Source: Flaviaestuariibacter flavus (GTDB taxonomy: Bacteria > Bacteroidota > Bacteroidia > Chitinophagales > Chitinophagaceae). Taken from it: a stretch of 64,000 bases of DNA. Shown here piece after piece: positions 20,350-36,553 of the stretch (positions within the stretch are counted from its first letter, which is position 1; each line of letters starts with the position of its first letter). The notes beneath the pieces are model-generated. The model had not been told where the DNA came from. It ran no database searches and saw only the letters and a program-made list of their open reading frames with translations. The position numbers and the translations under genes were made by a program. The stretch covers positions 186,001 through 250,000 of the forward strand of contig NZ_SJZI01000052.1 in assembly GCF_004337505.1 (NCBI RefSeq), read 5' to 3'.

Positions 20350-22431
20350 ATGGAACAGACACCTCACCAGCACCACGGTCAAAAGGGTTCTTCACACGTC
20401 GCTCATAATACTGCTTCTGATCCCGTTTCTCCCGAAGTTCATGGCGGACACGACAAGCACGCCGGCCATCATACCCAGGATTTCCTGACCCGGTTTTGGG
20501 TATGCCTGGTGGTAACTGTGCCGGTGCTTTTGCTGTCTCCTATGATCCAGTCCTGGCTCGGCTACTCGTTGCGCTTTCCGGGCGACATATATGTCCTGTT
20601 GGCATTAGGCGCCTTTATCTATTTCTATGGCGGGCTTCCGTTTTTAAAAGGAATGATCAGCGAAATCCGCGATCGTGCGATCGGCATGATGACCCTGGTG
20701 GCCCTCGCGATCTCGGTAGCCTTTTTCTACAGCGTGGCCGTGGTCTTTGGGCTTCGCGGCATGGACTTTTTCTGGGAGCTGGCCACGCTTATCGACATCA
20801 TGCTGCTAGGGCACTGGCTGGAAATGCGGTCCCAAACGGCCGCATCAAATGCCTTGCAGTCGCTGGTGGCGCTTTTGCCTTCCCAGGTGCACCTTGTTGA
20901 AACGGATGGCGTTCGGGACATTGAATTAATAGACCTGCACAATAACGATATAGTGCTGGTCAAGCCAGGGGAGAAAATGCCGGCGGATGGCCATGTGGTG
21001 GCGGGAGAAAGCTTTGTCGACGAAAGCATGCTGACCGGCGAGAGTGTACCTGTCCGCAAGACCAGGGGTGACCGGGTGATTGCCGGCGCAATCAACGGTG
21101 ATGGGGCCCTGCGCCTGCATGTTACCGGCGCGGGTGCAGACAGCTACCTGAATAAGGTCATTGCCCTGGTTCAGTCGGCGCAGAATGCCAAATCGGCTAC
21201 CCAAAACCTGGCCGACCGGGTAGCTAAGTGGCTCACTTTTATTTCCATCATCGTAGGAGTCGGCACTTTCCTTTTCTGGTACCTGCAGGACCGGAACCTG
21301 GCCTTCGCGCTGGAACGGCTCGTAACTGTGATGGTCACCTCCTGCCCGCATGCGCTCGGAGTGGCCATACCGCTGGTCGTCGCTATCTCTACCACCCGTG
21401 CTGCTATCAGCGGCCTGCTGATCCGCAACCGTACTGCCTTTGAGAATGCACGGAAGCTTACTACCGTCATTTTCGACAAGACCGGTACCCTGACAAAAGG
21501 ATCGCACGAAGTGCAGCAGGTTTTGCCGGCAAATGAGTCAATCAACGCGGAAAGCCTGTTGCAGCTCGCCGCTTCTGCGCAACAAAATTCAGAGCACTAT
21601 ATCGCCCGCGGAATGCTTCGCGCCCTGAAGCAGCAAAATATAGCACTATTGCCTTCCTCCGGCTTCCGTAATGAGCAAGGTGCGGGCGTGGAAGCTACGG
21701 TTGCAGGTAAGAAGATCGCCGTTGGTGGACCGAATTATTTCGGCAGCCGGAATAGCCCCGTTCCGGCGATCCCCTCCTCCGTTGACCAGGCTGCCGAGAC
21801 AGTGAGCTTCGTCCTGATTGACGGGACACTCGCAGGCTATATTACCCTTGCCGACTCGATCCGCGAAACAGCCCCGGACGCGATCCGGCACCTGAAATCG
21901 ATGGGCATCCGCTCCTTCCTTCTTACCGGCGATAATGAACAGGTAGCCGCTTCAGTGGCCCAAAAGCTCCATATGGACGGATTTATGGCCAATGTATTGC
22001 CGCACCAAAAGCAGGAGCGGCTGCAGTCGCTCCAGCAAAAAGGGGAAATTGTAGCCATGACCGGCGATGGCGTGAATGACGCGCCCGCATTGGCACAGGC
22101 GGATGTGGGCATAGCCGTAGGAAGCGGCACCGACGTGGCCGCCGAGACGGCGGACATCATCCTGGTAAACAGCGACCCGCAGGATGTGGTGAATATGATC
22201 GCTTTTGGGCGAGCTACCTACCGGAAAATGAAACAGAATCTTTTCTGGGCTGTAGGTTATAACCTGGTTGCTATTCCATTGGCCGCCGGGGTACTCTACC
22301 CTAAGTTCATGCTAAGTCCGGCGATGGGTGCTGTGCTGATGAGCCTGAGTACCATCGTAGTAGCATTCAACGCACAATTGTTGCGCCGGCAATTTCATCC
22401 GGTCAGGCACCAGGATTTGGAACAGGAGTGA
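20350..22431 (+). CDS. CopB-type (CPH) heavy-metal P-type ATPase
   Basis: 693-residue P1B-ATPase. The N-terminus is His-rich ([22 protein letters not shown]) in place of a CxxC HMA domain. The metal-translocation helix has C332-P333-H334 ([13 protein letters not shown]), the CopB/P1B-3 signature; also seen are TGES in the actuator, D376-KTGTLT phosphorylation loop, HYIARGM (in place of the usual HP) and [18 protein letters not shown]1B-3 pumps export copper, Cu(II) or Cu(I), or silver. It follows DUF305 by 30 bases, so the two are likely co-transcribed. Confidence 0.93.
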
Positions 22432-22477: not shown

Positions 22478-22503
22478 GTGATACAGGTCGAATGCTACCT
22501 TTG
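22478..22503 (+). promoter_or_regulatory. Autoregulatory operator overlapping crp-like promoter
   Basis: GTGATACAGGTCGA (22478-22491) is a degenerate copy of the GTGAC-N4-GTCAC operators found downstream. It lies between ATTG (-33) and TACCTTTG (-7, 22496-22503), with its centre 11.5 bp before the -7 box. Binding there would block RNA polymerase, predicting self-repression. The -7 box is only 5 bases from the ATG, so the mRNA is probably leaderless. Confidence 0.7.
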
Positions 22504-22508
22504 TTTTC

Positions 22509-23156
22509 ATGACCGAAAAAGAGTTGAGCCTGTATTTTCCTACGCTTGAGCCGGAACTGCTTGCCGAAATGATCCGGGTTGCGGACGTTCGGGAGTTGCC
22601 GGAAGGGACGGTACTCATGCGCACCGGGCAAAATATCCGTACGGCCCTGCTCGTGCTCGAAGGACTGGTCAAGGTCTACCGCGAAGATGAAGAAGGCAAT
22701 GAGTTCCTGATGTATTACCTCGACTCCGGGAAAGCCTGCGCCGTTTCGCTGGTGTGCGAGCTGGGAAAAGAGCAAAGCGGCCTCATGGTAAAGGCGGTTA
22801 CCAACGCTACGGTCCTGGCCATTCCCCTGCAGCAGGTGGACGCCTGGATGGGCAAATACAAAAGCTGGGCGCAGTTTTCCGTTTCTTCCTACCGCGATCG
22901 CTTCGATGAGCTGTTACAGACCATCGACCAGATCGCGTTCCGCAGCCTGGATGAACGTCTTGTGTTTTACCTGCGGCGCTACCAGGAAAAGTTCGGAACC
23001 AGGCAGGTGCCGGTCCCGTTCACCGAGATCGCCCAGGATCTCAACTCTTCGCGCGAGGTGATCTCCCGCCTCATGAAAAAGCTCTCGGAGCGGGGCGCCG
23101 TTCGCCTCTTCAAATCGTATGTTGAGATCGTGGATCTCGGCACTGTACTCCCGTGA
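22509..23156 (+). CDS. Crp/Fnr-family regulator of the sulfur island
   Basis: 215 residues: an N-terminal cyclic-nucleotide-like beta-barrel (about 10-120), a dimer helix and a C-terminal winged helix with recognition helix SSREVISRLMKKL. The R-E-x3-R pattern is that of E. coli CRP, which reads GTGA half-sites, matching the GTGA-N6-TCAC operators in this island. There are only two cysteines, C77 and C83 (GKACAVSLVCELG), in the sensor barrel; no FNR-type N-terminal Fe-S ligands. A thiol or persulfide switch is a reasonable hypothesis, not shown. Four nearby operons have matching sites. The stop codon lies inside the next operator. Confidence 0.93.
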   Translation: MTEKELSLYFPTLEPELLAEMIRVADVRELPEGTVLMRTGQNIRTALLVLEGLVKVYREDEEGNEFLMYYLDSGKACAVSLVCELGKEQSGLMVKAVTNATVLAIPLQQVDAWMGKYKSWAQFSVSSYRDRFDELLQTIDQIAFRSLDERLVFYLRRYQEKFGTRQVPVPFTEIAQDLNSSREVISRLMKKLSERGAVRLFKSYVEIVDLGTVLP

Positions 23157-23196
23157 CCCGGGTCACGTTTCGCTGCGGACACAACGTCCACCTTCG
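23153..23196 (+). promoter_or_regulatory. Operator and promoter of TauE/SafE gene
   Basis: GTGACCCGGGTCAC (23153-23166; the perfect palindrome extends to 16 bp with flanking C and G) overlaps the stop codon of the regulator gene. Its centre (23159.5) is exactly 29.5 bp before the CACCTTCG -7 box (23189-23196), the spacing of a class II activator site near -41. Confidence 0.85.
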
Positions 23197-23213
23197 CTTT
23201 CCAAACAGAAAGC

Positions 23214-24011
23214 ATGGCGTTATTTGGCTATTTCGCATCCCTGCTGATCGGTGTGTCGCTCGGCCTCATCGGTGGTGGCGGATCCATTCTCACCGTCCCG
23301 GTGCTGGTGTACCTCTTCGGGTTGAACCCGCTCCTGGCAACCTCCTATTCACTCTTTGTGGTGGGCTCCACGAGCTTCGTCGGTGCCCTCAACAACTTCC
23401 GTAAGCGATTGGTACACCTGAAGGCAGTTGTTCTTTTCGGCTCCTCTTCGCTGGTCACCGTCTTTGCCACCCGGCGCTTCCTCGTGCCGGCAATTCCCCA
23501 GAACCTGGCACAGGTGGGAAGTTTCACGCTTACTTCTTCGCTGCTCACGATGGTGCTTTTTGCGGTACTGATGCTGCTGGCTTCAGTGAGCATGATCCGT
23601 GGCCGTAAAGAGGAGGCTCATGCATCGGAGTGCGCTGAATACTTCACCGTTAAAAAGCTGCTTGACTATGGCATCGGCATCGGTCTGATTACCGGGCTTT
23701 TGGGCGCCGGGGGCGGATTTCTCCTGATTCCTGCGCTCGTGCTGCTTCTTAGGCTCCCCATGAAGATGGCGGTGGGTACTTCTCTACTCATCATTGCACT
23801 GAACTCGCTGATCGGCTTTGCCGGTGATCTCGGCCACGTGGCGATCCGGTGGGGCTTCCTGCTGCGGATCACTGCAATCGCAGTAGCCGGAATTTTCCTG
23901 GGTGGCGCCATCGGTAAAAAGATCGCAGGCGAGCGCCTCAAAAAAGGTTTTGGCTGGTTTGTGTTGCTGATGGGCACCTACATCCTGGTCCGCGAAACCC
24001 TTCTGAAATAA
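23214..24011 (+). CDS. TauE/SafE-family sulfur-compound permease
   Basis: 265 residues with about eight membrane helices. The duplicated family motif is visible at the start of each half: IGVSLGLIGGGGSILTVPVL and IGLITGLLGAGGGFLLIPALV. TauE/SafE proteins move sulfur-containing anions (sulfite, sulfoacetate, possibly thiosulfate) across the inner membrane. It directly follows the Crp/Fnr gene, with its own operator, and precedes persulfide-oxidising genes, so export of sulfite formed in the cytoplasm is likely. Confidence 0.92.
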   Translation: MALFGYFASLLIGVSLGLIGGGGSILTVPVLVYLFGLNPLLATSYSLFVVGSTSFVGALNNFRKRLVHLKAVVLFGSSSLVTVFATRRFLVPAIPQNLAQVGSFTLTSSLLTMVLFAVLMLLASVSMIRGRKEEAHASECAEYFTVKKLLDYGIGIGLITGLLGAGGGFLLIPALVLLLRLPMKMAVGTSLLIIALNSLIGFAGDLGHVAIRWGFLLRITAIAVAGIFLGGAIGKKIAGERLKKGFGWFVLLMGTYILVRETLLK

Positions 24012-24025
24012 GCCGACCGCGCACT

Positions 24026-24069
24026 GTGACTCAGGTCACGGATGGCCCGGAAACAACAGGAGAACTTTA
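24026..24069 (+). promoter_or_regulatory. Operator and promoter of first MBL-rhodanese gene
   Basis: GTGACTCAGGTCAC (24026-24039), centre 24032.5; the -7 candidate GAACTTTA begins at 24062, again 29.5 bp away. A GTG within the palindrome is in frame with the gene but is operator, not start codon. Confidence 0.85.
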
Positions 24070-24088
24070 CAGGTATAAACGAAACAAT

Positions 24089-25507
24089 ATGAAAATTGAA
24101 CAGATCTATACCGGTTGCCTGGCACAAGGCGCCTACTATATCGAAAGCGACGGCGAGGCCGTGGTGATCGACCCCCTGCGCGAGGTGGCCCCTTACCTGG
24201 CCAAAGCTGCGGGTGATGGTGCGCGGATCAAGTACATTTTTGAGACGCACTTCCATGCCGACTTTGTTTCAGGTCACGTGGATCTCTCCCGGGAAACGGG
24301 TGCCCCGATCGTTTACGGTCCGGGCGCAGATACTGCCTTTGAAGCGCACGTTGCTCAGGATGGTGAAGAGTTTCGCGAAGGTACGGTCACCTTTCAATTG
24401 CTCCACACGCCAGGTCACACCCTGGAGAGCGCCTGCTTTCTTTTGAAGGATGAGACCGGTAAGGCCGTGGCCCTGTTCAGCGGTGACACTCTTTTTATCG
24501 GCGATGTGGGCCGTCCTGACCTCGCACAAAAAGCCGCGCATATGACGCAGGAAGAGCTGGCAGGAACGCTGTATGACTCGCTCCGTACAAAAGTGATGAC
24601 GCTGCCCGACGAAGTGGTCGTTTATCCCGCGCACGGTGCCGGCTCTGCCTGCGGTAAGAACATGAGCAAAGACACCTCCGACACGCTTGGCAACCAGAAG
24701 CGGACGAATTATGCCCTTCGTGCCGATATGACGCGGGGGGAATTCATTCATGAAGTAACGGATGGGCTTACAACTCCGCCGGCATTCTTCCCCTTGAATG
24801 TGATGCTCAATAAGCACGGCTACGACAACATCGGCGAAGTGCTGAAGCGCGGCCAGCAAGCCTTGGACCCGGATGCGTTCGAGGCAGCTGCCAATGAAAC
24901 CGGTGCGCTCATCCTGGATACGCGGGCGCCGCAAGTCTTCGCGAATGGATTTATTCCGAACGCGATAAACATTGGTATCGATGGCTCTTTTGCCCCTTGG
25001 GTAGGTGCGCTGATCCCCGACATCCGGCAGCCCATTCTGCTGGTAACGGAACCCGGCCGCGAGGAAGAGGTGGTGACCCGCCTGGCACGGGTCGGCTACG
25101 ACGGAACAATCGGTTACCTGGACGGCGGCTTCGATGCCTGGCAGGCTGACGGGAAAGAAGTGGACCATGTCGATTCAATATCTGCGACATCCTTTGCAGC
25201 GTTTGCTGCGCTGCCGGATGTAAAGATCCTTGATGTGCGGAAGCCTGGGGAGGTCGTGAGCGAACACGTAGTGGGTTCCCAGAACCTGCCGCTCGATAAC
25301 ATCAATGACCACATCGCTTCACTCGACCCCGAGCAGACCTACTTCGTACACTGCGCCGGCGGCTACCGCTCCATGATCTTTAACTCGATCCTGCGCGCCC
25401 GCGGCTTCCACAAGCTGGTAGATGTACAAGGCGGCTTCAAAGCCATCAAAGAGAGCGGCGCGGTACCGGTAACAGCCTATCTGTGCCCGAGTACGCTTGC
25501 TAAATAA
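24089..25507 (+). CDS. Metallo-beta-lactamase/double-rhodanese persulfide dioxygenase
   Basis: 472 residues from the ATG at 24089. The N-terminal MBL domain has ETHFHADFVSGH (H54, H56, D58), TPGHTLES and SGDTLFIGDVGRPDL, close to ETHE1/CstB-type persulfide dioxygenases that bind one iron and oxidise low-molecular-weight persulfides to sulfite. Two rhodanese domains follow: the first (about 265-355) lacks the active Cys (PILLVTEPGREEEV), the second has C422-AGGYRS. Acts in the cytoplasm to remove sulfane sulfur. It follows an operator for the nearby Crp/Fnr protein and heads a run of rhodanese and membrane genes. Confidence 0.94.
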   Translation: MKIEQIYTGCLAQGAYYIESDGEAVVIDPLREVAPYLAKAAGDGARIKYIFETHFHADFVSGHVDLSRETGAPIVYGPGADTAFEAHVAQDGEEFREGTVTFQLLHTPGHTLESACFLLKDETGKAVALFSGDTLFIGDVGRPDLAQKAAHMTQEELAGTLYDSLRTKVMTLPDEVVVYPAHGAGSACGKNMSKDTSDTLGNQKRTNYALRADMTRGEFIHEVTDGLTTPPAFFPLNVMLNKHGYDNIGEVLKRGQQALDPDAFEAAANETGALILDTRAPQVFANGFIPNAINIGIDGSFAPWVGALIPDIRQPILLVTEPGREEEVVTRLARVGYDGTIGYLDGGFDAWQADGKEVDHVDSISATSFAAFAALPDVKILDVRKPGEVVSEHVVGSQNLPLDNINDHIASLDPEQTYFVHCAGGYRSMIFNSILRARGFHKLVDVQGGFKAIKESGAVPVTAYLCPSTLAK

Positions 25508-25534
25508 TCACGAATACACGTAAATCACTTTGTT

Positions 25535-25801
25535 ATGATGAATAAGCTGACAGACGCAGTAATTGTAGATGTGCGCACGCCGGACGAATACCGGCAGGAG
25601 CACTTCCCGAACGCAGTAAACATTCCCCTCGACCAGGTTGGCGCCCGTGCCGCTGAGATCAGGGCCTGGAACAAGCCGGTAGTGCTCTATTGCCGCAGTG
25701 GCAACCGGAGTGGCATGGCTTTGTCGCTGCTCAAGCTGCAAGGGCTTGCCGAGGTGTACAACGGCGGCGGTCTTGATGATATGAAACGCGAAGCCCGATA
25801 A
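25535..25801 (+). CDS. Single-domain rhodanese
   Basis: 88 residues. DVRTPDEYRQEHFPNAVNIPLDQV and the active-site loop CRSGNRSG mark a compact rhodanese (GlpE/PspE size) that moves sulfane sulfur between thiols. There is no signal peptide, so it acts in the cytoplasm. A second ATG one codon downstream is equally possible. It lies 27 bases after the MBL-rhodanese gene and has no operator of its own; probably co-transcribed. Confidence 0.93.
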   Translation: MMNKLTDAVIVDVRTPDEYRQEHFPNAVNIPLDQVGARAAEIRAWNKPVVLYCRSGNRSGMALSLLKLQGLAEVYNGGGLDDMKREAR

Positions 25802-26012
25802 CCCAAGCCGGTAACCGCCATGCGGGAGCATCGCTTCGTTACGAATCAATGATTCAGACGCATCGGTTGCGGGTTGAAGCAACGGTCGTAGGCAAAGGAA
25901 CGCCCGGTAAGGCTGTCTGGCCCGATCCCTATGTGTTCAATAAGGTGAATCTGATACAGTATAACTTAATAATGCAGCTGTCTTTCTGACGGCTTGTGAA
26001 AAAAAGAAGAGA

Positions 26013-26252
26013 ATGACTAGGAGAAGCTGGTACATTTTCAGGGTCCTGCGGCTGATTGCGGGACTCGCGATTGCCGGGTTTGGAATTTCAAACAGCTCGG
26101 CTGGTATGATAGCGGCAGGCGCCTTATTTTCAACCATGGCCTTGTTGAATATTGGAGGATGCGGGGCAGCCGGTTGCACGCGACGGATGGAAAACAACGT
26201 TTCACAACAAAAAAGGAAAATCGATTATGAAAAGCTGGATCTACCGCAATAA
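26013..26252 (+). CDS. DUF2892/YgaP-like small membrane protein
   Basis: 79 residues with two hydrophobic helices (LRLIAGLAIAGFGISN, IAAGALFSTMALLNIGGCGAAGC). The pattern is that of the membrane part of YgaP-type rhodaneses (DUF2892), which in other bacteria is fused to a rhodanese. GGCGAAGC supplies two cysteines near the membrane face. It overlaps the next gene by 26 bases. Likely part of a sulfur-transfer relay at the inner membrane (inference). Confidence 0.82.
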   Translation: MTRRSWYIFRVLRLIAGLAIAGFGISNSSAGMIAAGALFSTMALLNIGGCGAAGCTRRMENNVSQQKRKIDYEKLDLPQ

Positions 26253-26460
26253 GGTATACTTCATCGGGGCGATCGCAGGCGCTTCAGCCGGGTACCTGTA
26301 CTGGCGCAATGTGGGTTGCCTCACCGGCTCCTGTGCCATCACTTCCAACCCGCTAAGGAGTACACTCTATTTTGCCGGAATGGGCGCCTTGCTCTTCGGT
26401 TTTTTCAAAAAGGAACAAAAAGATACGAAGCCAGCAGGCAGCACTGAACAGCACGCTTAA
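26227..26460 (+). CDS. DUF6132-like small membrane protein
   Basis: 77 residues from the ATG at 26227. A membrane helix (VYFIGAIAGASAGYLYW) is followed by RNVGCLTGSCAITSNPLRSTLYFAGMGALLFGFFK, with a CLTGSC dicysteine motif like that of the DUF6132 family. It overlaps the DUF2892 gene and ends 10 bases before the second MBL-rhodanese gene. The cysteines and the context suggest handling of sulfane sulfur at the membrane. Function unproven. Confidence 0.8.
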   Translation: MKSWIYRNKVYFIGAIAGASAGYLYWRNVGCLTGSCAITSNPLRSTLYFAGMGALLFGFFKKEQKDTKPAGSTEQHA

Positions 26461-26470
26461 ACGATACGAT

Positions 26471-27826
26471 ATGCAGATCAAACAATGGGAAGACAAAAGC
26501 CTCGCGCACTTCAGCTACGCAGTGCTCAGTGATTGTGAAAAGAAGATTGTCCTCATCGACCCGGCACGCGATGCGTCACCTTATCTCGAGTATGCGGCTG
26601 CGGAAGGAGCTCAGATCGTGGGCGTGATCGAAACGCATCCGCATGCCGACTTTGTGAGCAGCCACCTGGAAGTACACGAAAAAGCAGGCGCTACGATCTA
26701 CGTGAGTGAGCTGGCCGGCGCTCAGTACCCACACGAGCCCCTCAAAGAAGGCAGTGAGCTGCGCATCGGCAAGGTGCTCCTGCGGGCGCTGCATACCCCC
26801 GGTCATTCGCCCGACAGCCTCTCGATCGTGCTGGAGCATGACGGCAAGCTAAAGGCGGCATTCACTGGTGACACGCTCTTTATCGGCGACTGCGGCCGTC
26901 CCGACCTGCGCGAGGGGGCGGGCGCCATGCAGGCTACGCGGGAAGACCTCGCCCGGCAGATGTATCACTCGCTGCGCGATAAATTGATGGCGCTGCCCGA
27001 CGATGTATTGCTGTACCCGGCGCACGGCGCAGGCACCTTATGTGGTAAGGCGCTCAGTAAGGCTTCGGTAAGTACCATCGGTGCCGAGCGGCAAACGAAC
27101 TGGTCGCTACAGGAAATGAGTGAGGCCGAATTCGTAGCGGAGCTGCTGTCTGATCAGCCTTTCGTGCCGAAATATTTCCCGTTTGATGTGGAGCTGAACC
27201 GCACAGGCGCGCCAGCATTGAAAGCCTCGTTACATGACGTCGTGATCGGCACTCCCGTAAACGAGAAGACTTTCGGGCGCCTGGATCCGCACACCTGGAT
27301 CATAGACGGTCGGAAAGAAGATGTGTTCAAGTCGGGTCACCTGCCACATTCGGTGAACCTGATGGAGGGCAACAAATTTGAGACCTGGCTAGGCTCGATC
27401 ATCGCACCTGGCGAACCGTTTTATCTCGCCGCAGAAGATGAGGGGCAGCTATGGCGTTTGCTCAGTCGTGCCGCCGCAATTGGCTATGAAGCGCAGATTC
27501 GGGAAGCCTTTGTGCTGCAGGGCGGTTCTGTGCGGGAAGAAACCTTTGATGTAGCTGCTTTCCGGGAAGGTCCAGACAGGTACACTGTTGTGGACGTGCG
27601 GAACCCGTCCGAGACGAGTCAAGGCAAGCCTTTTGGCCACAGCATCACCATCCCCTTGGCCGACCTCCGCGAGCGGGCCCACGATATTCCGACCGATAAG
27701 CCCATCGTGGTGCATTGCGCCGGTGGCTACCGAAGCGCAGCGGCAGCCTCCCTGCTGGCCTCCCTGACCGATGGCAACACCAAGGTCTATGACATGGGGG
27801 AGAATATCCGTAGTTTTCAGGTGTAG
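26471..27826 (+). CDS. Second metallo-beta-lactamase/rhodanese protein
   Basis: 451 residues from the ATG at 26471. MBL part: ETHPHADFVSSH (H56, H58, D60), TPGHSPDS, TGDTLFIGDCGRPDL. Rhodanese part: a degenerate first domain (WIIDGRKEDVFKSGH) and a second with C416-AGGYRS. It is a paralogue of the 24089 gene but clearly diverged (for example an insertion REGAGAMQATRED). Two copies in one island suggest different persulfide substrates or partners. The start follows DUF6132 by 10 bases, so it is part of the same transcript. Confidence 0.93.
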   Translation: MQIKQWEDKSLAHFSYAVLSDCEKKIVLIDPARDASPYLEYAAAEGAQIVGVIETHPHADFVSSHLEVHEKAGATIYVSELAGAQYPHEPLKEGSELRIGKVLLRALHTPGHSPDSLSIVLEHDGKLKAAFTGDTLFIGDCGRPDLREGAGAMQATREDLARQMYHSLRDKLMALPDDVLLYPAHGAGTLCGKALSKASVSTIGAERQTNWSLQEMSEAEFVAELLSDQPFVPKYFPFDVELNRTGAPALKASLHDVVIGTPVNEKTFGRLDPHTWIIDGRKEDVFKSGHLPHSVNLMEGNKFETWLGSIIAPGEPFYLAAEDEGQLWRLLSRAAAIGYEAQIREAFVLQGGSVREETFDVAAFREGPDRYTVVDVRNPSETSQGKPFGHSITIPLADLRERAHDIPTDKPIVVHCAGGYRSAAAASLLASLTDGNTKVYDMGENIRSFQV

Positions 27827-27886
27827 TCGGCGGCCTGCGGAACCGTTTCGCATCATTTGTTGCATGAATTTCATAAAACGCCCTGG

Positions 27887-27930
27887 GTGACTCCGGTCAC
27901 GTAGGGGCTTTTTTTATCCCCGCACCTTTG
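27887..27930 (+). promoter_or_regulatory. Operator and promoter of YeeE/YedE pair
   Basis: GTGACTCCGGTCAC (27887-27900), centre 27893.5; CACCTTTG -7 box at 27923-27930, 29.5 bp away. A TTG inside the -7 box is in frame with the gene but is not the start. Confidence 0.88.
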
Positions 27931-27945
27931 CTTAAAACTTTGAAT

Positions 27946-28509
27946 ATGCTCGAATTTCTCCGTCACCCTTGGCCCTGGTACATAGCCGGGCCGCTCATTG
28001 GCCTGATTGTGCCCACGCTGCTGCTGATCGGCAACAAGCACTTCGGCATCTCGGCAAACCTGCGGCATGCCTGCGCGGCTTGTTTTCCTGCAAGCATCCC
28101 GTTTTTTAAATACGAATGGAAGAAAGAGATCTGGAACTTCTTCTTCGTGGGCGGCATTTTCGTGGGCGCATTCCTGGCCGTATGGCTGCTGGCGAATCCG
28201 GAACCCATCGCGGTGCACCCGGAACTTACCAGGGAGCTTGCCGGTTATGGTATCCATGATCAAAGCAGGCTCCTGCCCGCCGAGATCTTCAGCTTCAGTA
28301 GTCTCTTTACTTTGCGTGGATTAATCCTGCTGGTGGGAGGAGGCTTCCTGGTGGGCTTTGGTGCCCGCTACGCCGGCGGCTGCACTTCCGGTCACGCCAT
28401 CATGGGCCTGAGCAATCTGCAGGTGCCCTCGCTCATTGCCACATGCTCCTTTATGGCCGGGGGCTTTATCATGGCCAACTGGATCCTTCCCTTCATTCTT
28501 TCCCTGTAA
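27946..28509 (+). CDS. YeeE/YedE-family sulfur transporter, first half
   Basis: 187 residues from the ATG at 27946. Four or five membrane helices and the family motif [20 protein letters not shown], whose Cys lines the thiosulfate/sulfane-sulfur path in YeeE. In many bacteria the transporter is split in two half-size genes; the second half follows 19 bases downstream. Inner-membrane transport of thiosulfate or sulfane sulfur is the family role. Transcription is predicted to be activated by the Crp/Fnr protein. Confidence 0.93.
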
Positions 28510-28528
28510 CTCTTAGAACATTTTCCTA

Positions 28529-29050
28529 ATGGAAAAAACACAAACTACAGCCGGCGCTCCGCAGGCTATCGATACCGATTTCGAAGTACGTAGCCTCGAC
28601 ACGATCTGTATTAACGAATCGCGCCAGGTGCACCCCTGGTGGTACAACTTCAAGTACCTGCTGGTAGGCTTGGTATTTGGCATCGTCTTCGTCAAGGCGG
28701 AGATCATCTCGTGGTTCCGCATCCAGGAGATGTTCCGCCTGCAAAGTTTTCATATGTACGGTGTCATCGGCTCCGCGGTCGCAGTCGGCATCATTTCCGT
28801 ATGGCTCATCAAGCGCTTTGGGGTGAAGACGATCTATGGCGAGCCGATCGAGTTTCATCCCAAGAAGTTCAACAAAGGACAAATCTACGGGGGCTTGCTT
28901 TTTGGCCTCGGCTGGGCCATGACCGGAGCCTGTCCGGGTCCGCTGTTCGCGCAGATCGCTTCCGGCTTCGGGGTGGTTGTTGTCGTGCTGCTGAGTGCCA
29001 TCGCCGGCACCTGGGTGTATGGCTACTTCCGCGAACGGCTTCCGCATTGA
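28529..29050 (+). CDS. YeeE/YedE-family sulfur transporter, second half
   Basis: 173 residues. A hydrophilic N-terminus of about 35 residues, then four membrane helices with the half-motif GLGWAMTGACPGPLFAQIASG, including the conserved Cys. It pairs with the preceding 187-residue half to give a complete YeeE-type fold. It ends 15 bases before the stop of the convergent MFS gene. Confidence 0.93.
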   Translation: MEKTQTTAGAPQAIDTDFEVRSLDTICINESRQVHPWWYNFKYLLVGLVFGIVFVKAEIISWFRIQEMFRLQSFHMYGVIGSAVAVGIISVWLIKRFGVKTIYGEPIEFHPKKFNKGQIYGGLLFGLGWAMTGACPGPLFAQIASGFGVVVVVLLSAIAGTWVYGYFRERLPH

Positions 29051-29064
29051 CCTGGCGCAATAGG

Positions 29065-30285
29065 TCAGGGGCAGATGACGCTGGTCCAAAGCAGCTTCCG
29101 GCTGCAGCACATCCGCACCTGCGCAACGAGCCCGGCGCCTGCGGTAATCGCCGATACCGCCCCAAAAGCTGCACCGATGCCAAAGGCGTCCGCGATCACA
29201 CCTGCAAGCAGTGCCCCGATCACATAACCGGCATCCCGCCAGAAGCGAAAGATCGCAAGCCCCTCTGCCCGTTGAGCAGGGTGCAGGTTCTCCGCGACGG
29301 TGGTAAGGAAGTTAGGGTATACCAGCGCCGTGCCGAGGCCGAGCATGGATACGAGTATCACATCGGCGGTGAAGCTGCTTTGAAAAGCTACCAACGCGAG
29401 CGCGATCGCCTGCACCCACATGCCCAGGATGATCAGTTGCTTTTTGCAAAAGCGGTCGCCGAGCCGGCCGGTCAGGAGCTGCCCAATGCCCCACACAGCG
29501 GGATATATGCCTGCAAGGATACCGACCTGGCCTGTGGTGTATCCTTTCTGCAACAGCAGAAAGGGAAGCAGGCCCCAGGTGATGCCGTCATTCAGGTTGT
29601 TCACGAGTCCATTGAGGGTGACGCTTCCGAGGTTGCTATGTTTGTAAGTCGTTTCTTTCCAGATGTTGCGGAGACGTGGGATCGGGCTCGATAGCCCTTC
29701 TGCGTGCACGAGTACGCCGGTGTCCTTTACAAACAGGAGGCTGAGCACAAGGCCTGCGACCGCGAAGAGTGCGCCCGGCGCGAAGGAAAGCACCCGGCTC
29801 CCCGCCGCCCCGCCGAGATAGGCCGCAAGGTAGGCAGCCAGGCCCACGGAAAGGTAGCCGGCGAATTCGTTAATGCCCATGGCAAGCCCACGGTTCTTCT
29901 CGCCGATAAGGTCGATCTTCATGATGACGGTAGTGGACCAGGCTAATCCCTGGTTGATTCCGAGTAGTACGTTGGCCAAAAGGATCCAGGTCCAGGCAGG
30001 GGCGTACATCAGCAGGAAGGGGACGGGCAGAGCGGCCAGCCAGCCCAAGATCAGTACCGCTTTGCGCGAATACCGCTTCATGAGGCATCGGGTGACCAGG
30101 TTGAAGAGCGCCTTGGTGGCGCCGAAAGCGATAATAAAGCTGAGGACCGCCGTTTTCCCATTGATGTGAAACTCCGAGGCGGCAAGCCCCGGCAGCACGG
30201 AGCGCTCCAGGCCGATCATGGCCCCCACGAAGGCGTTGATGAGCACCAGCAGCCAGAACTGCTTCCAGTTTTCCGTCAGTCGCAT
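29065..30285 (-). CDS. MFS exporter in the sulfur island
   Basis: 406 residues from the ATG at 30285 (MRLTENWKQF); the GTG at 30348 lies inside an operator and is rejected. Twelve membrane helices; NAFVGAMIGLERSVLPGLA in helix 1 and AYLSVGLAAYLAAYLGG are typical of an MFS subgroup found near sulfur and arsenic genes. The substrate is not readable. Its operator indicates shared control with the permease, persulfide-oxidising and YeeE genes, so export of a sulfur compound such as sulfite or thiosulfate is plausible. Confidence 0.88.
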   Translation of the reverse strand: MRLTENWKQFWLLVLINAFVGAMIGLERSVLPGLAASEFHINGKTAVLSFIIAFGATKALFNLVTRCLMKRYSRKAVLILGWLAALPVPFLLMYAPAWTWILLANVLLGINQGLAWSTTVIMKIDLIGEKNRGLAMGINEFAGYLSVGLAAYLAAYLGGAAGSRVLSFAPGALFAVAGLVLSLLFVKDTGVLVHAEGLSSPIPRLRNIWKETTYKHSNLGSVTLNGLVNNLNDGITWGLLPFLLLQKGYTTGQVGILAGIYPAVWGIGQLLTGRLGDRFCKKQLIILGMWVQAIALALVAFQSSFTADVILVSMLGLGTALVYPNFLTTVAENLHPAQRAEGLAIFRFWRDAGYVIGALLAGVIADAFGIGAAFGAVSAITAGAGLVAQVRMCCSRKLLWTSVICP

Positions 30286-30304
30286 CTCGTTGTTTGTTGA
30301 GGGT

Positions 30305-30348
30305 CGAAGTTGCGGCTGCAAAAGCATTCCTGGCGTGACTGCGGTCAC
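30305..30348 (-). promoter_or_regulatory. Operator and promoter of MFS gene
   Basis: GTGACTGCGGTCAC (30335-30348), centre 30341.5. On the minus strand the -7 box CAACTTCG (30312-30305) begins 29.5 bp from that centre, the same geometry as the three plus-strand targets. Confidence 0.85.
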
Positions 30349-32359: not shown

Positions 32360-32947
32360 ATGTACGATTTGCTGATTAAGCACTTTAACCGATACGTTTC
32401 ACTGACTCCGGAAGAGCAGGACTTGTGTATAGATTTTTTTCAGTACCGCAAGCTGCGAAAGCATCAATATCTTCTGCAGGAAGGTGATGTAAGCCGCCAC
32501 GAAACCTATATCCTCAAGGGCTGCATCCGTGTTTACGAAGTGGACGAAAAAGGGCAGGAGCATATCCTGCAGTTCGGCGTCGAAGACTGGTGGGTAGGAG
32601 ACCTGCTGAGCTACTGGACAGGCACGCCTTCTACGCTCAATATCGATTGCGTGGAGGACTGCGAGGTGTTGCAGATCACGCAGGAAAAGAACGAGGAGCT
32701 TTGTATGGCGATCCCTAAGCTGGAGCGGCATTTCAGAAAGCTCATACAGGCGGCATACGTGGCCTCACAACGCCGCATTCATTCCTCCATCAGCAAGACG
32801 GCCCTTGAACGTTACCAGGAATTTATCGCTAAATATCCCGAGATCGATCAGCGTGTTCCGAACCATTATATTGCTTCGTATCTTGGCATTACCCCCCAGA
32901 GCCTGAGCCGCGTGCGCAGCCACAAACCGAATAGTGCGCGCTCATGA
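32360..32947 (+). CDS. Second Crp/Fnr-family regulator
   Basis: 195 residues: cNMP-binding-like barrel (YLLQEGDVSRHETYILKGCIRVYEVDEKGQEHILQFG) and a C-terminal helix-turn-helix HYIASYLGITPQSLSRVR. The recognition helix (PQSLSRVR) differs from the sulfur regulator's SREVISR, so it should read another site. This Bacteroidota subgroup often stands next to small stress genes such as the flavodoxin, SnoaL and DoxX cluster just upstream and probably regulates them. Confidence 0.9.
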   Translation: MYDLLIKHFNRYVSLTPEEQDLCIDFFQYRKLRKHQYLLQEGDVSRHETYILKGCIRVYEVDEKGQEHILQFGVEDWWVGDLLSYWTGTPSTLNIDCVEDCEVLQITQEKNEELCMAIPKLERHFRKLIQAAYVASQRRIHSSISKTALERYQEFIAKYPEIDQRVPNHYIASYLGITPQSLSRVRSHKPNSARS

Positions 32948-32989: not shown

Positions 32990-33550
32990 ATGCACCTGTT
33001 TATCAAAAATATGGTATGCGACCGCTGTATCATGGCGGTACAACGTACACTGGATCAGCAGGGCCTGGCATATACGGACGTCAGATTGGGCGAAGTGGAA
33101 CTTCCCGGTTCCCTATCTCAGGAGCAGCAGGAAGCGTTGAGAACTTCCTTAAGAGAAATAGGATTTGAGTTGCTGGATGATAAAAAGGCACGAATCGTAG
33201 AAAAAATAAAGAATGCAATCGTTTCACTGGTACACCGGGGCGATGACGAGTTTAACATGAAGCTATCCGCGTTGCTCGAAGAAAAGCTTCAAATGGATTA
33301 CCATTATCTCACCTCGCTTTTTACATCAATCGAAGGTGTGACCATTGAAAAGTATACTATACTGCAACGCATTGAAAAAGCTAAGGAGTTATTGGCGTAC
33401 AACGAATTGAGCCTGAGTGAGATCTCGTACCAGATGGGCTACAGCAGCGTTCAGCATTTATCCCAGCAATTCAAGAAGGTCACCGGGATGACGCCCTCCC
33501 AGTTCCGCAATCTGAAAGAAAACAACCGAAAGCCTTTAGACAAGGTTTGA
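32990..33550 (+). CDS. HMA-domain/AraC-type HTH regulator, copy 1
   Basis: 186 residues. The first 70 resemble a heavy-metal-associated domain: MHLFIKNMVC10DRC13IMAVQRTLDQQG, ending REIGFELLDDKK. The remainder is an AraC-type double helix-turn-helix: LLAYNELSLSEISYQMGYSSVQHLSQQFKKVTGMTPSQFR. It lacks the cupin or other sensor domain typical of AraC proteins. The CxxC suggests direct sensing of Cu(I) or a similar thiophilic metal, in line with the neighbouring CopA, CopZ and multicopper oxidase genes. Paralogous to the next gene. Confidence 0.85.
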   Translation: MHLFIKNMVCDRCIMAVQRTLDQQGLAYTDVRLGEVELPGSLSQEQQEALRTSLREIGFELLDDKKARIVEKIKNAIVSLVHRGDDEFNMKLSALLEEKLQMDYHYLTSLFTSIEGVTIEKYTILQRIEKAKELLAYNELSLSEISYQMGYSSVQHLSQQFKKVTGMTPSQFRNLKENNRKPLDKV

Positions 33551-33593: not shown

Positions 33594-33637
33594 CGGGCCT
33601 CCTGGCTGGCTAATTTGTGCCTTCAAGTTATAGTCCA

Positions 33638-34216
33638 ATGCAGGTACAAAAAATAGTTATCAAGGGAATGGTTTGTGAACGCTGTATTTCTTCCGTCACT
33701 GATGAATTATTAAAGCTCGATGTGCAGGTGATGGAAGTAAGCCTCGGACAGGTGATCCTGCAAGCACCGTTTTTGATAGATGAGGCACTTATCGGGGAAC
33801 GGCTGCGACCGCTCGGATTTACGCTTCTTTCCGATAAGCGGTCTAAAGTGGTCAAGGATGTGAAGGCGCTCATTTCAGAAATGTATTCCGGTCATTTTGA
33901 TTTTGCGGATCATTTCAGGTTTTCTGCATTTCTGGCAAGCCGCATGAATATGTCGTATGATAAAATCAGTAACGATTTTTATGCACTGGAAAAAACGTCT
34001 CTGGAACAGTTCTCCATTTCTTTTCGCATCGATAAAATAAAAGAGGAGCTGGTTTATACCAATAAAAGCCTGGCCGATATTGCCGTTGCTTTTGGATTCA
34101 GCAGCGTAGCACACGTCTCGAAACAATTCAAAACGCATACGGGCCTCAATCCATCCTACTTCAGGAAATTGAAAACATCAAAAGAAGCCACGCAGGCTTC
34201 GTTATCGAAGGCCTAA
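33638..34216 (+). CDS. HMA-domain/AraC-type HTH regulator, copy 2
   Basis: 192 residues from the ATG at 33638; an upstream GTG adds seven residues without support. Same plan as copy 1: an HMA-like domain (VIKGMVC13ERC16ISSVTDELLKLDVQVMEVSLGQ) and an AraC HTH (ELVYTNKSLADIAVAFGFSSVAHVSKQFKTHTGLNPSYFRKLK). The two are diverged paralogues, so they may respond to different metals or partners. It lies directly before copA, and both have TATAA-type operators in their promoters; this protein is the best candidate to bind them. Confidence 0.85.
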   Translation: MQVQKIVIKGMVCERCISSVTDELLKLDVQVMEVSLGQVILQAPFLIDEALIGERLRPLGFTLLSDKRSKVVKDVKALISEMYSGHFDFADHFRFSAFLASRMNMSYDKISNDFYALEKTSLEQFSISFRIDKIKEELVYTNKSLADIAVAFGFSSVAHVSKQFKTHTGLNPSYFRKLKTSKEATQASLSKA

Positions 34217-34239: not shown

Positions 34240-34277
34240 AAGTATAATAGGGGACTATGCGGGCTTGCTGACCTTTG
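34240..34277 (+). promoter_or_regulatory. copA promoter with TATAA-type operator
   Basis: AAGTATAATAG begins at 34240; GTATAA starts 28 bp before the -7 box GACCTTTG (34270-34277), the same spacing as in front of copZ and the DUF3347 gene. Confidence 0.6.
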
Positions 34278-34291
34278 TGAAAAGAATAATC

Positions 34292-36553
34292 ATGGCCAGC
34301 ATAGTTAAGATAAAAGATAAGTCGGGAACGGAAGCCGCATTATTGGTCAGGGAGACCTTCCCGGTACTGGAAATGACCTGTGCAGCATGTGCTGTAAGTG
34401 TTGAGTCGATGCTCAAATCAGCCCCCGGAATAAAAGACGCCGGCGTGAACTTTGCCAATCAAAGTGCTTGGGTGGAATACGATCCCGCCCTGGCAACTAA
34501 AAACGACCTGCAGAACGTTGTTCGTTCAATTGGCTACGACCTGGTGATCGATACCGAGAACAGCGAAGAAATCAAGGAGACCGCCCAACGCAGGCATTTA
34601 AGAGAGGTTCAGCAACGAACGATCTGGTCTTCTGCCTTATCGCTTCCTATCGTGATCATTGGGATGTTTTACATGCGTATGCCCTACGGCAACTGGATCA
34701 TGATGGCGCTGGCAACGCCAGTTGTGTTCTATTTCGGAAAGACCTTTTTTGTCAATGCCTGGAAACAGGCGATGCATAAAAAGGCCAATATGGATACGCT
34801 GGTAGCCCTGAGCACAGGTGTTGCCTACATATTCAGTGCGTTTAATACGATCTGGCCGGATTTCTGGCTTCAACGCGGATTACGTCCCTATGTTTATTTT
34901 GAGGCAGCCTCGGTGGTCATAGCATTTATTTCGCTGGGAAAATTACTGGAAGAAAAAGCGAAGTCGAATACTTCATCGGCACTGAAAAAGTTAATGGGCT
35001 TACAGCCTAAGACCGTCACTTTGATCCATAACGGAGTGCAACGGCTGGAAGTGCACATCACCGCTGTTAAAGCAGGTGATACGCTTCTTGTGAAGCCTGG
35101 CGATAAGGTGCCCGTAGATGGCGTTGTCAGCTCAGGCGAATCTTTTGTAGACGAAAGCATGATCACTGGAGAACCCGTGGCCGTTTTAAAGATCGCGAAT
35201 GAAAAGGTCTTTGCGGGCACCATCAATCAAAAGGGAAGCTTTCAGCTGAAAGCGGAAAAGGTGGGCGCTGAAACGGTGCTTGCGCAGATCGTAAAGATGG
35301 TGCAGGAAGCACAGGGAAGCAAAGCGCCGGTTCAAAAGCTGGTTGATAAGATCGCAGGGATTTTTGTGCCGGTAGTTATACTCATTGCGCTTCTGACGTT
35401 TGCGGCATGGATGCTATTTGGTGGCGAAAACGCGTTTACGCAGGGTCTGATTAATGCGATAACAGTTTTAGTGATCGCTTGTCCCTGTGCCTTGGGACTG
35501 GCAACTCCAACGGCCATTATGGTAGGGGTAGGCAAAGGTGCAGAAGAGAATATGCTCATCAGGGATGCTGAAAGCCTGGAGTTAGCGCATAAAGTAAACG
35601 CAGTAGTGCTGGATAAAACCGGCACCATAACGGAGGGAAAGCCGTCCGTGGCGGGTATGGAGTTCGCAACCAACCGCGATGTGCCGCTTCTCAAGAGCAT
35701 ACTGCTTGCTATCGAGGCGCAGTCGGAACATCCGCTTGCCGAGGCTGCCGTCAATCGCCTTCAAGCGGAAGGTGCAATCGCCGCAAAAGTCGATGCGATT
35801 GAAAGTATTACCGGTCAGGGCCTGAAGGCGGTCGTCAACGGCGACTTGTACTTGGTCGGGAACCGGCGGCTGATGGCTGCGCATGGAGTGCTTCCGAATG
35901 CCCCCCTCGACGAGCGCATTGCTTCCTGGCAAACCGACGCAAAAACGGTGGTTATGTACGCTAAAGACCGTTCGCTTCTGGCTGCGATCGCTATTACAGA
36001 TAAAGTAAAAGCAGGGTCAGTTGCAGCGGTTCAAAGCTTGGTGCGTCAGGGCATCGAGGTATATATGCTCACTGGAGATAATAAGCATACGGCAGCAGCA
36101 GTGGCACAGGAAGCTGGAATAAAGGAATTCAAAGCCGAAGTAATGCCCAACAATAAGGCCGAATTTATCAGGCTGCTGCAGAAGCAGGGGAAAACGGTTG
36201 CGATGGTAGGGGATGGTATCAATGATTCGCAAGCGCTGGCCCAGGCCGACGTGAGTATCGCGATGGGGCGTGGCTCTGATATTGCGATGGACGTAGCCAA
36301 AATGACCCTGATCACATCCGACCTAAATGCTATCCCCAAAGCGCTGAAGCTTTCGCGGAAAACAGTAAGAACGATCAGGCAGAACTTGTTTTGGGCTTTT
36401 ATTTATAATATTATCGGGATTCCATTGGCTGCCGGTCTTTTATACCCGCTCAACGGCTTTTTGCTAAACCCGATGATCGCGGGTGCAGCCATGGCGCTCA
36501 GTTCTGTAAGTGTAGTTGGCAACAGCCTTCGCCTAAAGTTTACCAGATTATGA
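34292..36553 (+). CDS. copA: CopA-type Cu(I)-exporting P-type ATPase
   Basis: 753 residues from the ATG at 34292. One N-terminal HMA domain (EMTC30AAC33AVSVESMLKS), eight membrane helices, translocation motif C397-P-C399 (VIACPCALGLATP), phosphorylation loop D441-KTGTITEG, SEHPLAEA, and GDGINDSQALAQADVS. This is a P1B-1 pump moving Cu(I) or Ag(I) out of the cytoplasm. It may also supply copper to periplasmic cuproenzymes such as NosZ. Upstream are the two HMA-AraC regulators; downstream copZ. Confidence 0.96.
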   Translation: MASIVKIKDKSGTEAALLVRETFPVLEMTCAACAVSVESMLKSAPGIKDAGVNFANQSAWVEYDPALATKNDLQNVVRSIGYDLVIDTENSEEIKETAQRRHLREVQQRTIWSSALSLPIVIIGMFYMRMPYGNWIMMALATPVVFYFGKTFFVNAWKQAMHKKANMDTLVALSTGVAYIFSAFNTIWPDFWLQRGLRPYVYFEAASVVIAFISLGKLLEEKAKSNTSSALKKLMGLQPKTVTLIHNGVQRLEVHITAVKAGDTLLVKPGDKVPVDGVVSSGESFVDESMITGEPVAVLKIANEKVFAGTINQKGSFQLKAEKVGAETVLAQIVKMVQEAQGSKAPVQKLVDKIAGIFVPVVILIALLTFAAWMLFGGENAFTQGLINAITVLVIACPCALGLATPTAIMVGVGKGAEENMLIRDAESLELAHKVNAVVLDKTGTITEGKPSVAGMEFATNRDVPLLKSILLAIEAQSEHPLAEAAVNRLQAEGAIAAKVDAIESITGQGLKAVVNGDLYLVGNRRLMAAHGVLPNAPLDERIASWQTDAKTVVMYAKDRSLLAAIAITDKVKAGSVAAVQSLVRQGIEVYMLTGDNKHTAAAVAQEAGIKEFKAEVMPNNKAEFIRLLQKQGKTVAMVGDGINDSQALAQADVSIAMGRGSDIAMDVAKMTLITSDLNAIPKALKLSRKTVRTIRQNLFWAFIYNIIGIPLAAGLLYPLNGFLLNPMIAGAAMALSSVSVVGNSLRLKFTRL

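Follow-up and report, generated by a model that had tools for sequence, protein, structure and literature searches.

Which protein controls the sulfur genes clustered in a 64,000-nucleotide stretch of Flaviaestuariibacter flavus (contig NZ_SJZI01000052.1, positions 186,001 to 250,000), and to which signal does it respond? This stretch, called here the window, carries a Crp/Fnr-family regulator gene and four palindromic operators; it is part of one contig in an assembly that totals 3.96 Mb at a completeness of 85.8%. The sequence-only reading of the window had proposed one regulator and one operator in a class II-like geometry with sulfur genes behind it, a proposal supported by the recurrence of this arrangement in relatives. 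We consider it likely that the protein is a class II Crp/Fnr activator of a regulon for sulfane-sulfur import and oxidation, with a persulfide or polysulfide signal most likely perceived via Cys77. In this model, the regulator (22509-23156) would bind as a dimer to each of the four GTGAC-N4-GTCAC operators and would exert class II activation from about -41.5, at promoters with a -7 box and without a recognisable -33 element. YeeE/YedE-type import, persulfide oxidation by fusions of metallo-β-lactamase (MBL) and rhodanese domains, and export by TauE-type and perhaps major facilitator superfamily (MFS) transporters would then be switched on. Persulfide or polysulfide would act on Cys77, which occupies the place that the phosphate of cyclic AMP (cAMP) has in CRP, and Cys83 would assist in most members. 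From the comparison presented below we infer the start sites, activation as opposed to repression, the signal, the cysteine chemistry and the substrates. The regulator, operators and boxes are the following:

22509..23156, plus strand: Crp/Fnr-family regulator, 215 aa, with Cys77, Cys83 and helix SREVISR (Pfam, orthologues, alignment)
23153..23166, plus strand: operator 1, GTGACCCGGGTCAC, exact GTGAC-N4-GTCAC dyad
23189..23196, plus strand: -7-type box of operator 1, CACCTTCG, offset 36, conserved in relatives
24026..24039, plus strand: operator 2, GTGACTCAGGTCAC, exact dyad
24062..24069, plus strand: -7-type box of operator 2, GAACTTTA, offset 36
27887..27900, plus strand: operator 3, GTGACTCCGGTCAC, exact dyad
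27923..27930, plus strand: -7-type box of operator 3, CACCTTTG, offset 36
30335..30348, minus strand: operator 4, GTGACCGCAGTCAC as read on the minus strand, exact dyad
30312-30305, minus strand: -7-type box of operator 4, CAACTTCG, offset 36

At 23153-23156, the end of the regulator gene with its stop codon runs into operator 1. We confirmed all four exact dyads claimed earlier (at 23153, 24026, 27887 and, on the minus strand, 30335), exactly 29.5 bp from dyad centre to box start at each (36 bp from dyad start to box start, 4/4). The targets named for them were also correct: operator 1 precedes TauE, operator 2 the MBL-rhodanese operon, operator 3 the YeeE/YedE-type pair and operator 4 the MFS gene. 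Beyond these four, no further dyad with up to two mismatches and a box at offset 36 was present in the 64 kb. Shuffled versions of the window contained on average 1.12 dyads at up to one mismatch, and 3 of 100 shuffles reached four; the dyads alone were therefore rejected as sufficient evidence, and within the window the motif on its own is a moderate surprise only. The improbable parts are the shared offset (binomial estimate about 2e-9) and the clustering within 7.2 kb of four of the seven exact sites found in the 3.96 Mb genome (about 7e-6), both being simple estimates uncorrected for the choice of reported features. A backward control pattern occurred three times in this genome, and in many genomes it is as frequent as the motif. 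No box at offset 36 accompanied the three remaining exact sites of the genome, nor any of the 8 one-mismatch sites examined out of 64. The idea that every exact site is functional was rejected, as a box is missing at 3/7 exact sites of this genome and at 12/20 unlinked sites in relatives.

We then compared 198 stretches (window included) carrying 201 regulator genes for 197 distinct proteins, picked by regulator similarity without use of the motif; some genomes occur twice, and distinct contexts were counted where this applied. Regulators were assigned to a Glu class or a Val class by recognition-helix residue 183, operators were allowed one mismatch at most, and the box pattern was [TCG]A..TT[TC][GA]. 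In the 548 regions examined ahead of sulfur genes, 130 of 160 Glu-class sites had the box at offset exactly 36, as did 25 of 34 in the Val class; 12 and 1 sites, respectively, had it at offset 37, and the remaining top offsets listed accounted for 1 or 2 each. Motif and spacing recur near sulfur genes of related Bacteroidota. Over the whole stretches we counted 234 operator-plus-box sites, compared to 9 in the reversed sequences, with at least one site in 131 of the 198 stretches and in 113 of the 163 that have a sulfur gene. The observation holds and is far stronger across relatives than within the window, and comparison of these sequences gives good support to a regulator-operator arrangement recurring in many related bacteria.

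Genes of persulfide oxidation and sulfur transport lie behind the operator and box in many relatives, and we predict from this position that they are controlled by the regulator. Among 246 distinct operator-plus-box sites (collected stretches plus 20 extra regions), 240 had a reading frame behind them, and target groups were named by Pfam on one representative per cluster. These were MBL-rhodanese fusions (69 + 12), TauE (39), YeeE (20) and rhodanese (16), more rarely DUF6132-like proteins (2), the regulator itself (2) and MFS (1). Away from the regulator stretches, 20 exact sites were found in 18 regions, with a box at 8 and none at 12; all 8 boxed sites precede sulfur genes, namely flavin adenine dinucleotide (FAD) oxidoreductase (3), TauE (2), MBL-rhodanese fusion (2) and rhodanese (1), so that the regulon described earlier as self-contained is not fully so in relatives. 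On a Pontibacter akesuensis plasmid, the regulator, TauE, MBL, rhodanese, YeeE, DUF6691 and MFS genes are consecutive, and the stretch examined has four operator-plus-box sites, which stand before TauE, the MBL gene and two genes with rhodanese domains. The MFS transporter is only partly supported as a core member: a dyad (up to one mismatch, within 100 bp upstream) was present at 4/12 other MFS loci (5/13 with the window), with the strict box at offset 36 in 1/4 of these (2/5 with the window) and a near-box at another. Sulfite export by this protein, as proposed earlier, was a guess. Overall, the sulfur content of the predicted regulon is well supported.

The regulator belongs to the Crp/Fnr superfamily, with PF00027 (cNMP_binding) and PF13545 (HTH_Crp_2) above the Pfam cut-off and fold matches in agreement. 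Its best PDB sequence match is 3dv8, a Crp/Fnr protein of Eubacterium rectale (E 3.3e-16), which has a REV recognition helix and a cysteine pair aligned with that of the regulator. According to the regulator's PDB sequence alignment, from which CRP equivalences were taken, CRP Glu72 is Glu in 0/197 regulators and CRP Arg82 is Arg in 10/197, and identity with a cAMP-dependent CRP was rejected on these counts. The protein resembles E. coli CRP in its fold, its GTGA-N6-TCAC operator and the helix Arg and Glu that read the half-site (PMC11253593), whereas these cAMP residues are not kept and the cassette has a cysteine instead. Cys77 was found in 196 of the 197 regulators and Cys83 in 166. In an AlphaFold2 model (mean predicted local distance difference test, pLDDT, 87), a short helix (78-82) lies between the two cysteines. 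The sole regulator without Cys77, that of locus L069 (9710-10339), also lacks Cys83, and its operator (site 10410) precedes an ArsR-like gene, named by sequence reading, and no sulfur gene. A Cys77-Cys83 disulfide as universal mechanism was rejected, as Cys83 is missing in part of the set.

In the sulfane-sulfur sensors known so far, cysteines turn into persulfides, disulfides or tetrasulfides (PMC11211675); on this ground we propose that Cys77 is probably the residue reacting with persulfide. We lean towards persulfide as the signal, and positive control is likewise probable. The same regulator, operator and regulon could instead serve another signal, such as thiosulfate, sulfite, nitric oxide, general thiol oxidation or a bound cofactor, which we regard as a possibility to be kept in mind, though a clearly smaller one. 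The signals of Crp/Fnr proteins are diverse, with PrfA and Vfr responding to glutathione (PMC7315123), Cys83 is not universal and the cluster lies between two P-type ATPases. However, sulfane-sulfur genes make up most of the targets in relatives and Cys77 is almost invariant; moreover, the window protein alone cannot build an FNR-type cluster, because it has two cysteines in all versus the four needed for [4Fe-4S], on which count FNR identity was also rejected.

The direction of control was approached through the promoter layout. Bacteroidota promoters have a -33 element and a TAnnTTTG -7 element, and because of this layout we estimate that the operator centre lies near -41.5, the class II position; the 36 bp to the box is constant, and the start sites are predicted from it. 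A logo of 118 non-redundant Glu-class sites, selected for the box, lacked a -33-type element in the interval from operator to box, and of the two half-sites the promoter-proximal one was the stricter. The fixed offset of 36, the missing -33 element and an operator upstream of the box instead of over it correspond to an activator layout. The same features make it improbable that the regulator represses these promoters and that persulfide relieves the repression, even if CstR, SqrR and BigR, the persulfide regulators known in most detail, are described as repressors (PMC7315123, PMC11211675).

An activator at these promoters need not be the adjacent protein: the operator layout is the common CRP one, and the window encodes a second cNMP-binding protein (32360-32944), so that another Crp/Fnr protein of the cell might bind the operators, the adjacent regulator being incidental. 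The recognition helix argues for the adjacent protein. The equivalents of CRP Arg180, Glu181 and Arg185 were Arg, Glu or Val, and Arg in all 197 regulators, residue 183 being Glu in 137 and Val in 60. When perfect 5-4-5 dyads of any sequence were collected upstream of sulfur genes, GTGAC led among the half-sites of the Glu class (39/238) and GTAAC among those of the Val class (23/75), with two GTAAC dyads in the Glu class and no GTGAC dyad in the Val class. At other spacers there was no comparable half-site upstream of sulfur genes, save shifted readings of the same dyads. In a per-locus scoring blind to the third base, callable at 109 of 198 loci, 80 Glu loci had G and 26 Val loci had A (106/109 in agreement). 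In CRP, the Glu181Val exchange itself shifts this base pair, and the covariation runs in the direction that the known CRP residue-181 code predicts. In CRP this base pair is read by Glu181 together with Arg185 (PMC11253593), and for the Crp/Fnr family as a whole a correlation of operator bases with residues 180 and 181 was found earlier (PMC1274295). A tree of 105 regulators, built without the helix columns, required at least 4 changes of helix state and at least 7 of the operator; in three independent pairs on well-supported branches, the operator changed the same way in 2.9 on average (at least 3 switches). The CRP-like recognition helix noticed earlier in the regulator thus contains the residue that covaries with the operator base, and the regulator-operator pairing is well supported by these comparisons.

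Genomes lacking the regulator served as a control. It was absent at E up to 1e-15 from 21 of 57 relatives. Homologues of MBL-rhodanese occur in all 21 and homologues of TauE in 5, and the 29 stretches around these homologues (113,922 bases, some overlapping) contained no operator-plus-box site; the control is good and not perfect, because the homologues may be paralogues. Together with the base change that follows residue 183, and with the lack of a REV helix in the 32360-32944 protein as read from its sequence, this makes binding by another protein very improbable. That the regulator is an HcpR2-type nitrosative-stress regulator is hardly credible and was rejected: HcpR2 is also of the Crp/Fnr family, its predicted motif GTAACnnnnGTTAC is the Val-class operator (PMC1274295) and Porphyromonas HcpR is among the best fold matches, but position 181 is Pro in most HcpR2 species and Ser or Gln in three (PMC1274295) versus Glu or Val in 197/197 here, and the regulons differ, the targets here being sulfur genes with no hcp among the target groups named by Pfam on cluster representatives.

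Several observations weigh against the proposed activator and its persulfide regulon. The reading is built on comparison, from which binding, expression and redox behaviour are predicted. Under the rule used, 50 of the 163 sulfur-gene stretches have no operator-plus-box site, and 79 of the 240 sites precede genes unlike those of the window, among them YgaP-type membrane protein (15), outer-membrane efflux protein (8), FAD oxidoreductase (6), SulP permease (5), DUF983 protein (4), thioredoxin (3), molybdopterin oxidoreductase (2), peroxiredoxin (2), several misread frames and single genes. We read the FAD oxidoreductase of these 6 sites as a probable sulfide:quinone oxidoreductase; in the genome of the window it gave only a weak match (E 3.6e-4, with a 90-residue query and an incomplete assembly), so that the completeness earlier ascribed to the system is not fully supported. 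Three loci depart from the helix-operator code, two Val loci with G and one Glu locus with A among the 109. For locus L213 (6571-11834), the exception arises because the locus holds a second regulator: one is Val and one Glu, each beside operators of its own type, with a GTGAC site directly after the Glu gene and GTAAC and GTTAC sites flanking the Val gene. The exceptions L112 and L193 stay without explanation, and three independent pairs do not suffice for a sign test. Finally, 31/197 regulators lack Cys83, and the Cys77/Cys83 geometry is not fixed by the model, because residues 81-90 average a pLDDT of only 59.

Similar genes are controlled differently in Acinetobacter, where the BigR (yeeE-yedE-pdo2) and FisR (pdo-sqr-tauE) operons share the YeeE/YedE, persulfide dioxygenase and TauE genes, but BigR is an ArsR repressor and FisR a sigma-54 activator (PMC7315123), in contrast to the Crp/Fnr protein and class II-like operator found here. 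A Crp-like protein of Acinetobacter is reported to be highly persulfidated, to no known effect (PMC7315123); at about 50% identity to E. coli CRP, it is a separate case from the window regulator. Known sulfane-sulfur sensors are of the FisR, SqrR, CstR, CsoR, OxyR and MarR types (PMC11211675). Among titles and abstracts of the open literature, with subscription papers mostly outside this scope, we found no Crp/Fnr regulator of persulfide genes and no Crp/Fnr example in control of sulfane-sulfur removal. If the proposal is right, a sulfur switch would be named for a large share of the Bacteroidota (regulator match at E up to 1e-25 in 133 of 392 sampled genomes), the operator-plus-box rule would yield target predictions, and the two helix states and two spacers would offer regulator-operator pairs from nature in which to study joint change of factor and site.

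The second spacer was found outside the Bacteroidota. The nearest named relative of the regulator, 79% identical, is from a Chitinophagaceae bacterium, and most of the 79 other named matches are Bacteroidota. More distant relatives (26-32% identity) lie on plasmids of Paracoccus, Thioclava, Pseudosulfitobacter, Azospirillum and Thiothrix and keep the CxxxxxC pair (C83/C89 in Thiothrix) and a REV[IV]SR helix. From 45 plasmid records with a match, we examined seven proteobacterial ones, two Paracoccus records being nearly identical, and one clostridial. In five of the seven, the regulator stands beside MBL and SulP genes, in some also DUF2892, YeeE and BLH/FAD-oxidoreductase genes; in the Azospirillum and Thiothrix records, DUF2892 alone follows it. 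GTRAY-N3-GTYAC lies between the regulator and the next gene in all seven (L310, L313, L314, L315, L316, L317 and L318), with half-sites alike and a spacer of 3 bp versus 4 bp in Bacteroidota, and when the spacer was varied from 0 to 12, these gaps held no GTRAY/GTYAC match other than the 3-bp one. The clostridial plasmid relative keeps the cysteines but has no such dyad and no sulfur genes nearby, and the context of a Thermus relative has no sulfur genes. These regulators may form a phylum-spanning class of Crp/Fnr activators, in which the cAMP phosphate-binding cassette would have turned into a cysteine-based persulfide sensor, with one half-site from Bacteroidota to Proteobacteria and operators that diverged by the Glu/Val-G/A switch and the 4- versus 3-bp spacer; we hold this wider view to be evenly balanced.

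The remaining genes of the sulfur cluster in the window are the following:

23214..24011, plus strand: permease, TauE/SafE-type (Pfam TauE, E 6.5e-38)
24089..25507, plus strand: MBL-rhodanese fusion 1, candidate persulfide dioxygenase (Pfam Lactamase_B and Rhodanese)
25535..25801, plus strand: single-domain rhodanese (Pfam Rhodanese, E 3.3e-16)
26013..26252, plus strand: small membrane protein, 79 aa (a few relatives have comparable reading frames)
26227..26460, plus strand: small membrane protein, 77 aa (relatives have comparable reading frames)
26471..27826, plus strand: MBL-rhodanese fusion 2, candidate persulfide dioxygenase (Pfam, PDB matches)
27946..28509, plus strand: YeeE/YedE-type transporter half 1 (Pfam Sulf_transp, E 3.3e-15; weak match to TsuA, a thiosulfate transporter)
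28529..29050, plus strand: YeeE/YedE-type transporter half 2, DUF6691/Sulf_transp (Pfam)
29065..30285, minus strand: MFS transporter, substrate unassigned (general MFS models, all below cut-offs)

Both fusions combine MBL and rhodanese domains, the architecture of persulfide dioxygenase-rhodanese fusions (Pfam, PDB), which they have in common with 3tp9, 3r2u and ETHE1/BpPRF-type proteins; 3r2u is presumably CstB. Fusion 1 has two rhodanese stretches according to Pfam and matched the 3tp9, 3r2u, ETHE1 and BpPRF chains in the PDB comparison. Fusion 2 is without its own operator in the window, and some relatives have an operator before it. The 79-aa and 77-aa membrane proteins gave no Pfam or NCBIfam match; we take the latter to be DUF6132-like, a label with no family match behind it.

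The sulfur cluster is bracketed by two P-type ATPase genes (20350-22431 and 34265-36553), about 35% identical over the match, which we read as metal exporters. Nearby are tandem AraC-type proteins (32990-33550 and 33617-34216), in which Pfam finds only the helix-turn-helix domain. The N-termini of both carry a metal-binding-like MVCxRC motif, read by eye as heavy-metal-associated (HMA).

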